Origin: Fidelibacterota bacterium | Lineage (GTDB): Bacteria > Fidelibacterota > Marinisomatia > SCGC-AAA003-L08 > JACNLC01 | Direction: 5' to 3' | Assembly (NCBI GenBank): GCA_013204025.1 | Contig: JABMOW010000026.1 | Location: 1-64,000 of the forward strand | DNA length: 64,000 nucleotides | Shown here: in pieces, positions 16,429 to 19,585 of the stretch | Layout: each line of letters opens with the position of its first letter | How positions within the stretch are numbered: position 1 is the first letter of the stretch | Position numbers and translations under genes: made by a program | The notes under the pieces: generated by a model | Database searches by the model: none | Told to the model about the DNA's origin: nothing | The model's input: only the letters and a program-made list of their open reading frames with translations

Positions 16429-17574
16429 ATGTTTAAGTACTCCTTCCAGATAAAGTTGGGTCTATTCATTTTCGGTTTTATGATCGTCTTCACTGTCTTC
16501 GGTCTGAACTGGTATATGGTGAAGAATATCCGGGAAGATGCCCGCGAACAGGTGGAGTATCTCGCTCGGGCGTACACTGACGCTATCAATAATTTGGAAC
16601 CAGAAAACATTCAGTACATCCTGGAAATTATAATGCCCTCCATCAATTTCCCCATGGTCATCACGTCTAACAATGAGATCTATGCGGTAAAAAATCTTAA
16701 TATCAATTACCCGGAAGGTTCACCTGAATACGAGGCTAAAATCCGGGATATCATTGTCAGGATGGATGAATCCTTTACGCCTTTACCCGTCACAGGAAAT
16801 GATATCGAAATCAGCAGGATTCATTATGGCGATCCAGCCATTGTGGGAAAGTTGAGATGGGTTCCTTATCTTGAAGTTGGCTTGATGATTTTATATATTT
16901 TATTGGGATTTTTCGGATTCCAGTTCATCCGAAATAGCGAGAAGCGATCTATCTGGATGGGGATGGCACGTGAAACTGCACATCAGCTGGGCACACCCAT
17001 ATCATCGCTTATGGGATGGGTGAAACTCCTGGAAGATGGTGAAAGTCGTAAAGAAGTCATTCCGTACATTCATGAGGATATCTCACATTTGAGCCAGATT
17101 TCGAATCGATTCCAAAAGATCGGATCGCATTCCAAATTCAAACCTGTCCCATTATTGAAGTTGGCACAAAAGACAGCCGATTATATGCAGGCGAGGATTC
17201 CTTCAAGTTCTCGAATTCAGATTGTGGTGAGTGGGGAAGATGCTACCATCTCTGGTGAAGAAACATTACTTTCATGGGCGTTGGAAAATTTGGTGAAAAA
17301 TGCATTAGATGCATTAAAGAATAACACCGGTACCATCACAGTGGAAATCTCACAGGCAATCGGAGCGAGTATTCAGGTTACGGATACTGGTAGTGGTATT
17401 TCCCGAAAGAACCGAAACCACATTTTCAAACCGGGATTCAGCACCAAAAAACGGGGATGGGGACTGGGCCTCAGCCTTACCCGACGGATCATCGAAGACA
17501 TCCACCGTGGGAAGATCACCCTGGTGTCATCAAAACCCGGTGGCACCGTATTTAGGATCGATCTACCGAAGTGA
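16429..17574 (+). CDS. Membrane sensor histidine kinase
   Basis: The 381-aa protein has transmembrane helices near residues 8-27 and 146-168 flanking a ~120-residue sensor region. The dimerisation/phospho-acceptor helix carries H185 in ARETAHQLGTPISSL. The HATPase domain has the N box (ALENLVKNALDAL), DTGSGIS and GLGLSLTRRI. The AHQLGTP H-box style is frequent in FCB kinases. No response regulator is adjacent, so it is an orphan; PorX at 0.5 kb is one possible partner, without direct evidence. It follows the glycan genes by 17 nt and may belong to their transcript. Confidence 0.92.
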   Translation: MFKYSFQIKLGLFIFGFMIVFTVFGLNWYMVKNIREDAREQVEYLARAYTDAINNLEPENIQYILEIIMPSINFPMVITSNNEIYAVKNLNINYPEGSPEYEAKIRDIIVRMDESFTPLPVTGNDIEISRIHYGDPAIVGKLRWVPYLEVGLMILYILLGFFGFQFIRNSEKRSIWMGMARETAHQLGTPISSLMGWVKLLEDGESRKEVIPYIHEDISHLSQISNRFQKIGSHSKFKPVPLLKLAQKTADYMQARIPSSSRIQIVVSGEDATISGEETLLSWALENLVKNALDALKNNTGTITVEISQAIGASIQVTDTGSGISRKNRNHIFKPGFSTKKRGWGLGLSLTRRIIEDIHRGKITLVSSKPGGTVFRIDLPK

Positions 17575-17790: not shown

Positions 17791-17819
17791 CCCGAATAAA
17801 CGCGATGCGTTTATTCGGG
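17791..17819. promoter_or_regulatory. Perfect 13-bp inverted repeat, operator-like
   Basis: CCCGAATAAACGC and GCGTTTATTCGGG form a perfect palindrome around GAT. The core GAATAAACG also occurs as a direct copy about 32 bp upstream at 17762-17770, giving three copies of one motif. No T-tract follows, so a terminator is unlikely. The palindrome ends four bases before a TTGACT -35-like hexamer and 53 bp before the start codon of a gene with a putative DNA-binding fold. This suggests an operator for that gene pair. Confidence 0.5.
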
Positions 17820-17822
17820 ATG

Positions 17823-17851
17823 TTGACTGCAATTATTAAGAACTAAATAAT
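17823..17851 (+). promoter_or_regulatory. Candidate promoter of the winged-helix/phosphorylase gene pair
   Basis: TTGACT (17823-17828) and AATAAT (17846-17851) are separated by 17 bp. The -10 element is weak. The position directly next to the 13-bp palindrome and just upstream of the gene pair makes it plausible. Confidence 0.3.
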
Positions 17852-17872: not shown

Positions 17873-18595
17873 ATGGCAGATTTTAGATTACCATCATCGT
17901 CTTACACAGAGTTAACCAAACTGATTAAAGCATACAGTTCAAACCCAAAAGGGGGAAGTTTGGATGATATTAGCCAATCAACAGCGATCCATAGAGTTGT
18001 AGTTAGCAAGAACAGTAAATTTTTAATTGCAGCGGGAATTATTAAAGGAGGAAATTTAAAGAGTCCAACTGAAAATGGATTGAATTTAGGACGTGCTTTG
18101 TCTTTTAATAAGTCCGACGAAATAATAAAATATTGGAAAAATATTATTTCTGAAACTGATTTTTTTATAAAAATGCTTACTGCTCTTGAAGTAAAAAGTG
18201 GAATGACAGAGGCTGATTTTATTGGGCATATAGAATATTCTTCGGGACAAAACAAAAACAAAGAATCAAGAGCTGGTTCAGGAGCTATAGTTGAAATATT
18301 GAAAGAAGCTGATTTAATTCAAGAATCGAATGGAAAACTAATTTCTTCTAAAAATTTGGATACAACGGAAGAGGAAGAAGATGAGGTTCTTGATAATTCT
18401 TCAAAGTCTGTTAATACTGACATGCTTAAAGAAGAAAAAAACGATTTGTCATCAAACATAAGTAAAACGGTATCAGTTGGTCGAGAAAGTGGAGTAACTA
18501 TAAATATAAATGTACAACTCACCGTGCCAGAAACGACAGATGAGAAAGTTTATGACAAGTTTTTCGAAGCAATGAAGAAACATTTATTGTCATAA
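17873..18595 (+). CDS. Putative double winged-helix protein, DUF5343-like
   Basis: The 240-aa product shows two helix-rich, winged-helix-like units. The first (residues ~8-75) reads [37 protein letters not shown]. The second (~95-165) reads [34 protein letters not shown]. An acidic low-complexity linker (TTEEEEDEV) follows, and the C-terminal segment [20 protein letters not shown] resembles the closing strand-helix of DUF5343-type proteins. That resemblance is from memory and should be searched. The gene ends 4 nt before a nucleoside-phosphorylase-like gene. Both are much richer in AT than the kinase gene upstream, suggesting transfer. A DNA-binding or adaptor role is inferred. Confidence 0.7.
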
Positions 18596-18599
18596 CATT

Positions 18600-19490
18600 A
18601 TGGATAATCTTTCTAAAATTTTTCTAAATACTTCAAAATTCGCTTTAGAAGCACGAAAAATATTTGGAATACCATTAAAACAAGAAAACAAAACAAATAA
18701 TTACGATATAGGGATTATTACAGCCACTGCTGAAGAATTCAATTCAATTGTTAGCTTAATTGACAACTGTGATGAATTAAATGAAAGTTTTAATGATTCA
18801 ATTATTTATTACTATGGCACCATAAATACGAATTCTGGTTTAAAGAGTATTATTATCCCTTACCCAATTTCAATGGGTGTTGAAGCGAGCGTTTCTACAA
18901 CAAGCAAAATGCTTTCAAATTTTAAGTTTAATTATGTCTTTATGGTTGGAATTTGTGCAGGAAATAAAAATGTAACTAACATTGGAGATGTTATTGTTGC
19001 AGAAAAGTCTCTGAACTACAATGAAATTGTGGAAGTACAAAGACAAGATAAAGGTACAAGGAAAAAATTCAGACAAAATGCAGATTCAATAGATAGAAAT
19101 CTTAAAGCACGATTGTCACTTTTTTCAAAAAAAATTGATTTTAAAAAATTTAAATCGGAATATATTGAAAGTGGAATTTTCAATAATCCTTTAAAATGTC
19201 ATATTGGTCTTTTAGTCTCCGGTAGTTCTCTTTTGCGAAGTGACAAAAAAATAAAAGAAATTAATGAGGATTATCACGGAATAAAAGGAATGGACATGGA
19301 AACAAACGGATTTTATTTCACATTATCACATTCTCGTAAAGAGCTACAACCAAAATTCGTTTCAATAAAGTCTGTTTCTGACTTTGGCGATTCTACAACT
19401 CACAAAGCTTCCGGTGAGAAAAGAAAGAAATATGCATTATATACTGCATCAGCCACACTATTTGACTTTATTAAAAATCACTTGAAATAA
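18600..19490 (+). CDS. Nucleoside phosphorylase/nucleosidase superfamily protein
   Basis: This 296-aa protein has the fold and active-site pattern of the PNP/MTA-SAH nucleosidase superfamily: DIGIITATAEEFNSI (E45/E46) near the N-terminus, MVGICAGNKNVTNIGDVIVAE (~115-135), the substrate-binding GMDMETNGFYF (M233, E234) and the catalytic-acid motif SVSDFGD (D261). It is not a housekeeping MTA/SAH nucleosidase: a ~35-residue N-terminal extension and a long insertion (about 140-200) are unusual. Stand-alone phosphorylase-like domains of this type are known as effectors in anti-phage and nucleotide-signalling systems, so such a role is possible with its winged-helix partner 4 nt upstream. By eye the GC content is near 25-30%. 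Confidence 0.85.
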   Translation: MDNLSKIFLNTSKFALEARKIFGIPLKQENKTNNYDIGIITATAEEFNSIVSLIDNCDELNESFNDSIIYYYGTINTNSGLKSIIIPYPISMGVEASVSTTSKMLSNFKFNYVFMVGICAGNKNVTNIGDVIVAEKSLNYNEIVEVQRQDKGTRKKFRQNADSIDRNLKARLSLFSKKIDFKKFKSEYIESGIFNNPLKCHIGLLVSGSSLLRSDKKIKEINEDYHGIKGMDMETNGFYFTLSHSRKELQPKFVSIKSVSDFGDSTTHKASGEKRKKYALYTASATLFDFIKNHLK

Positions 19491-19571
19491 CTGCAGCAAA
19501 CAAAGTATAAAAATAATTGCATATTCAGTAGTAAAATCAAGCTTTATAGCCCGCTTCAACTTTCATGCAAT

Positions 19572-19585
19572 TTAACAGTTGTTAA
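19572..19585. repeat. Small inverted repeat in the spacer after the phosphorylase gene
   Basis: TTAACA and TGTTAA surround GT. Together with the palindrome at 19615-19626 this makes the 248-bp spacer unusually rich in dyad symmetry. The function is not known. Confidence 0.45.

Follow-up and report, generated by a model that had tools for sequence, protein, structure and literature searches.

Does a small, AT-rich pair of genes in this 64,000-nt stretch of DNA (the window) encode an immune nucleosidase under the control of a dedicated partner protein, or a metabolic enzyme with a regulator gene in front of it? A preliminary description of the DNA had proposed a module in which a sensor or repressor is coupled to a phosphorylase effector, linked to anti-phage systems. 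The relatives of the second protein, the retention of the pair in a second organism, and a C-terminal tail that the first protein has in common with a defence-candidate protein speak for this proposal, whereas the double winged helix and the framing inverted repeats that accompanied it found no confirmation. As had been described, the two open reading frames lie 4 nt apart (CATT); both are intact, and two short features precede them:

17791-17819, no strand: 13-bp hairpin with perfect pairing, shortly before the module (no further genome copy except its own inverse).
17823-17851, + strand: best promoter-like site, TTGACT-17-AATAAT, 10/12, 21 nt 5' of P1 (sites of this quality turn up there about as often as chance would give).
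17873-18595, + strand: P1, 240 aa, with an N-terminal part of ~160 aa, a variable acidic linker and a conserved C-terminal tail; proposed sensor or gatekeeper (dN/dS about 0.09).
18600-19490, + strand: P2, 296 aa, PNP/MTAN-fold nucleosidase; proposed effector (PF01048 5e-10; PDC-M60C 2e-35; CBASS PN-superfamily effector 1.7e-19; dN/dS about 0.11).

The pair is indeed richer in AT than the kinase-like gene upstream (16429-17574), with a GC content of 30.5% against 44.1% for that gene and 40.2% for the whole window, and no other piece of equal length reaches its AT content when the window is divided without overlap. GC3 is 20-23% in the pair and 50% in the kinase gene, which is separate from the module and of different base composition. 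The pair was probably acquired horizontally. No recognised defence gene was found beside it in the window, an Rfam scan of the window returned rRNA only, and single-strand folding of the region downstream of the pair was not significant (z -1.36). As for the inverted repeats said to frame the module, we found the one upstream hairpin, which may be a terminator-like element or mark an old boundary, and a sole long flanking inverted pair; being just 73% complementary over 37 nt, the latter was unconvincing, and a transposon frame found no support.

Both P1 and P2 are taken to be real genes because a homologous pair in Ulvibacter antarcticus keeps the same order and lengths, with amino-acid identities of 73% (P1) and 70% (P2) and dN/dS near 0.1. 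These ratios, about 0.1 for each gene and approximate since synonymous sites are near saturation, indicate purifying selection on both. The homologues thus co-occur in 2/2 loci, and the scan of GTDB contigs for close relatives returned Ulvibacter only. Searches of 244 further genomes from the window's phylum and 394 further ones from Ulvibacter's class did not turn up the pair; neither protein had homologues in IMG/VR, P2 had none in phages, P1 had no match in plasmids, and 69 relatives held no further PDC-M60C match. The distribution of the pair, with two loci known, appears sporadic.

In Ulvibacter, the pair is carried as a cassette within an array that counts 11 repeats, each about 210-240 nt (L001:1-10952). 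The first 10 nt of each cassette are the inverted complement (9-10/10) of the 10 nt that open the next repeat, which holds for 10/10 complete cassettes and at a constant distance of 206-208 nt from the repeat's 3' end; integron attC sites pair their ends in this way. Another Ulvibacter contig (L017:8475-11998) ends in the same repeat after genes for a tyrosine recombinase and a NACHT-SNaCT8 protein, and the array therefore probably starts there, the two contigs not being physically joined. The recombinase carries Phage_integrase and SAM_4 domains and scores far below the cut-off of the IntI model TIGR02249, which is why we call the array integron-like and not an integron. Besides NACHT-SNaCT8, its cargo includes an FGE-sulfatase-domain protein, a protein that resembles a TIR effector model, and numerous small uncharacterised genes.

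The phosphorylase fold proposed for P2 was confirmed, PNP_UDP_1 (PF01048, E 5e-10) being the only Pfam domain matched. The residues named as its catalytic pattern (E45/E46, M233-E234 and D261) are present and kept in the Ulvibacter homologue, and E46, M233-E234, and D261 align with the equivalent columns of Escherichia coli MtnN and of Detocs-type PNPs. The positions that matter for its assignment are as follows:

18735-18737, + strand: codon of E46, in one column with the catalytic glutamate close to the MtnN N-terminus (alignment).
19026-19196, + strand: insertion relative to housekeeping nucleosidases (about residues 143-199), common to PDC-M60C PNP domains (alignment).
19296-19301, + strand: M233-E234, the ribose-binding pair of the fold (alignment).
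19380-19382, + strand: D261, the catalytic aspartate, in an SVSDF motif (alignment).

By score, P2 stands apart from housekeeping enzymes, as had been anticipated. It reached 120 bits (E 2e-35) with the PADLOC model PDC-M60C and 67.7 bits (E 1.7e-19) with the PADLOC model for CBASS PN-superfamily effectors, against 56 bits for the best housekeeping model (MTA/SAH nucleosidase, cut-off 169), and it fell below every housekeeping cut-off. Among controls, E. coli MtnN scored 42 bits with PDC-M60C, so that P2 scores almost three times as high, and DeoD gave no match. BLASTP aligned P2 with PDC-M60C-type proteins (four to five plasmid members) at 26-31% identity over ~200-270 aa (E 2e-16 to 4e-29), while matches to housekeeping enzymes were short (E 2e-4 or worse). 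In a PNP tree, Detocs-type PNPs were nearest to P2 by path, with deep forks open and housekeeping branches long. The insertion and the N-terminal extension described relative to housekeeping enzymes are both real, although the insertion is not unique to P2, since Detocs-type PNPs have it; the extension comprises residues 1-33 and is poorly conserved (40-45% between the homologues). Judged from sequence, P2 appears to be an immune-type PNP nucleosidase of the Detocs/CBASS effector group, nearer by score to effector than to housekeeping models, and its nearest described relatives are the PNP proteins of PDC-M60, in Detocs layout, and of CBASS.

PNP effectors of Detocs and CBASS are reported to split ATP into adenine and ribose-5'-triphosphate (PMC11249213, PMC12715507, PMC10952713), and the nucleosidase effectors of this kind described so far are coupled to cyclic-nucleotide signalling, two-component-like relays, pAgo, DRT8, and NLR-like systems (PMC10952713). 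The substrate of P2 is probably likewise an adenine nucleotide, ATP or (d)ATP; the phosphorylase superfamily is wide, and ATP specificity is not a property that can be read from sequence. PDC-M60 would correspond to Detocs (DtcA/B/C) according to its gene layout in plasmids, where the loci encode a large protein (~1,100 aa) that weakly matches a GHKL ATPase, together with a receiver and a receiver-PNP protein, the last of these being the arrangement of the effector DtcC. Along its entire length, P2 is most similar to the PDC-M60C PNP domain, with which it has the insertion and the GICAG and SVSDF motifs in common. Unlike Detocs, however, P2 carries no receiver domain, the module has neither a histidine-kinase-like sensor nor a receiver protein, and it consists of two genes rather than three, with an unrelated regulator in P1. 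With the CBASS effectors Cap17 and PNP-SAVED, P2 has the PNP nucleosidase effector domain in common but not SAVED, and no CD-NTase gene was recognised among the flanking ORFs (by eye); a Nostoc PNP locus taken as a comparison case has a cyclase. With MtnN and DeoD/Udp it has in common the fold and the catalytic positions E46, M233-E234, and D261, and it differs in the insertion, the N-terminal extension, much lower similarity, and the operon partner P1. The relatives of P2 on plasmids were exclusively PNP proteins with a receiver domain, a SAVED domain, or some other arrangement unlike that of P2. On one plasmid of the cyanobacterium Calothrix (L023:2839-6623), two PNP-superfamily genes lie in divergent orientation.

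The full length of P1 gave no Pfam, NCBIfam, or PDB match. AlphaFold models built from two-sequence alignments were unusable for both P1 (pLDDT 40) and P2 (pLDDT 32), and therefore neither the fold of either protein nor an interface between them was visible. The two winged-helix units ascribed to P1 thus found no backing, and its N-terminal ~160 aa possibly form a wHTH. The DUF5343-like C-terminus fared better, although in part only: the last ~31 residues of P1 are common to DUF5343-containing proteins (PDC-M34A), but this tail falls outside the Pfam DUF5343 domain and the N-terminal parts are unmatched.

18488-18592, + strand: C-terminal tail of P1, residues 206-240, common to DUF5343/PDC-M34A proteins (hhalign E 7.5e-8; PADLOC PDC-M34A 8.7e-8).

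The PADLOC match of P1 to PDC-M34A covers the C-terminal 61-64 residues only, and the idea that the P1 N-terminus is a divergent DUF5343 found no support (hhalign probability <1%). The tail is also the most constrained part of P1, with a dN/dS of about 0.03, and constraint is weakest in the linker that precedes it. A 37-column tail profile, searched in 395 genomes of Ulvibacter's class, 244 genomes of the window's phylum, and IMG/VR, strongly matched P1 and DUF5343-type proteins only; tail queries against plasmids gave no match. Weak tail matches (E > 1e-3) at L042 and L044, where no protein of the P1 or DUF5343 kind lies, were attributed to chance (L041 and L043 were left out), as was a weak P1 match at L029.

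In all seven examined loci with a DUF5343-type (PDC-M34A) gene, the gene that follows it, overlapping or within 4 nt, is of the HEPN_Swt1 type with an intact Rx4H motif, an assignment made by Pfam and PADLOC for one pair and by alignment for the other six. The loci (L028, L032, L033, L034, L045, L046, and L048) come from genomes of Ulvibacter's class, from two contigs of a viral collection, and from one genome of the window's phylum; PDC-M34A carries DUF5343 N-terminally in the one member checked. No paper naming this DUF5343 plus HEPN_Swt1 (PDC-M34) system was found in the literature searched. The gene that follows P1 encodes a PNP in 2/2 loci, and the conserved tail therefore pairs with one of two unrelated effectors. 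Like PDC-M34, the module is a two-gene operon with near-contact spacing, in which the ~31-residue tail closes the first protein and the effector lies directly downstream; unlike PDC-M34, P1 has no detectable DUF5343 in its N-terminal part, and its partner is a PNP rather than HEPN_Swt1 (PDC-M34B). By eye, the N-termini of the PNP and HEPN effectors hinted at a common docking motif, for which their comparison gave no support. As far as sequence comparison can tell, the pair is by defining features none of Detocs, CBASS, and PDC-M34, and, judging from two loci, it would join an effector of the Detocs/CBASS type with the tail of PDC-M34. The link to defence that had been looked for is accordingly found at the level of families (PDC-M60, CBASS, and PDC-M34A).

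With moderate confidence, we regard P1-P2 as a mobile two-gene module of the abortive-infection or toxin-antitoxin-like kind, in which an immune PNP nucleosidase, P2, would be placed under its dedicated regulator, P1. The N-terminal ~160 residues of P1 would sense a trigger, presumably phage, or bind DNA, and its tail, carried on the variable acidic linker, would mediate assembly with P2 or its control, as the part common to modules of such layout. Release or triggering by P1 would let P2 cut the N-glycosidic bond of a cellular adenine nucleotide, (d)ATP being the likeliest one. We infer that the two proteins touch directly and that the tail serves as a coupling or oligomerisation element, although its role could be no more than to oligomerise P1. 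We slightly favour a release of P2 from inhibition by P1 over an activation, in view of the order of the genes and of the domain-linker-tail layout, and the presence of the same tail on partners of two unrelated effector folds favours a scaffold or oligomerisation role for the tail.

The competitor that survives best is a pure toxin-antitoxin addiction cassette, which we consider unlikely and yet worth weighing: P2 would be the toxin and P1 an antitoxin and autorepressor whose tail blocks P2, with a role in maintaining the cassette instead of in phage defence. Gene order and the 4-nt spacing are toxin-antitoxin-like, P1 is laid out as an antitoxin might be (an N-terminal region, a variable linker, and a conserved tail), and the Ulvibacter copy sits in a cassette array; integrons are rich in toxin-antitoxin cassettes. 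The same tail, moreover, goes with HEPN partners, whose fold is common in toxins (PMC3710099). However, one tail would then need to inhibit two unrelated folds, HEPN and PNP, and the PNP effectors described so far are infection-triggered and not addiction toxins; nor are addiction and defence mutually exclusive. 

It is improbable that P2 is a nucleosidase of metabolism or salvage, of the MTA/SAH or AMP type, preceded by the gene for a transcriptional regulator. P2 does have the fold and catalytic residues of MTAN, but it lies far below all housekeeping cut-offs while scoring so much higher than MtnN on PDC-M60C; the insertion and the GICAG motif are common to P2 and PDC-M60C proteins, the pair is rare, AT-rich, and sporadic, and the P1 tail links it to effector operons.

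Three candidate cassette elements lie at the ends of the pair in the window:

17822-17831, + strand: GTTGACTGCA, proposed cassette-start core, where the Ulvibacter cassette starts (GTTGTGCGCA) (upstream-region alignment; 8/10 complementary to 19492-19501).
19492-19501, + strand: TGCAGCAAAC, proposed cassette-end core directly after the P2 stop, as in Ulvibacter (end comparison).
19499-19578, + strand: intergenic repeat, attC-like candidate, 74% identical to C3:1714-1793 (one other genome place, also 3' of a gene).

The ends pair at 8/10 (P = 0.085 in a 320-nt search) and do so at the positions expected from Ulvibacter, and it is plausible that the pair in the window is a former or solitary cassette. 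No match to an integron integrase exceeded the model cut-off in the window's genome. The least probable of the alternatives is that the pair, as a degenerate or stranded cassette, is a defence module that has lost its expression or mobility in this genome. It would fit that the pair occurs once, with neither integrase nor array seen next to it, that its ends are imperfectly complementary, and that the genome has no match over the integron-integrase cut-off; yet both ORFs are intact with a dN/dS of about 0.1 against a distant homologue, and a promoter-like site lies at the proposed cassette start.

For the immune module as preferred here, a broader and more tentative generalisation can be offered: the tail may be a general coupler of a sensor or gatekeeper to exchangeable effectors, and the pair a minimal two-protein system, free of messenger and kinase, in which an ATP nucleosidase is controlled directly by its partner and which has moved between bacterial groups as an integron cassette. 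P1-P2 suggests a compact, unreported wiring of the ATP-destroying effector class to a sensor or guard: the PNP enzyme appears to be coupled straight to a single small protein, the tail of which otherwise accompanies HEPN effectors. If true, effectors would be swapped on a conserved tail, a nucleosidase would be added to the cargo of integron-like cassettes, and a compact two-gene system would be at hand for dissecting how protein contact controls an ATP-destroying enzyme; a testable hypothesis would also follow for the uncharacterised PDC-M34 (DUF5343 plus HEPN) candidate.

Two further places in genome G000 deserve mention. The repeat copy at C3:1714-1793 (contig C3; L055/L058) follows a ~800-aa gene with protein-kinase-like and HD domains (by eye) and could mark another solitary cassette or be an unrelated repeat; it is taken as a lead, because the GTT core is missing at its 3' edge and no clear cassette start matches it (best 7/10). 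On contig C31, L018:8508-13205 encodes a 1,565-aa protein with P-loop-like motifs (by eye), near a weak tyrosine-recombinase match, and its product looks like a large defence-type NTPase.
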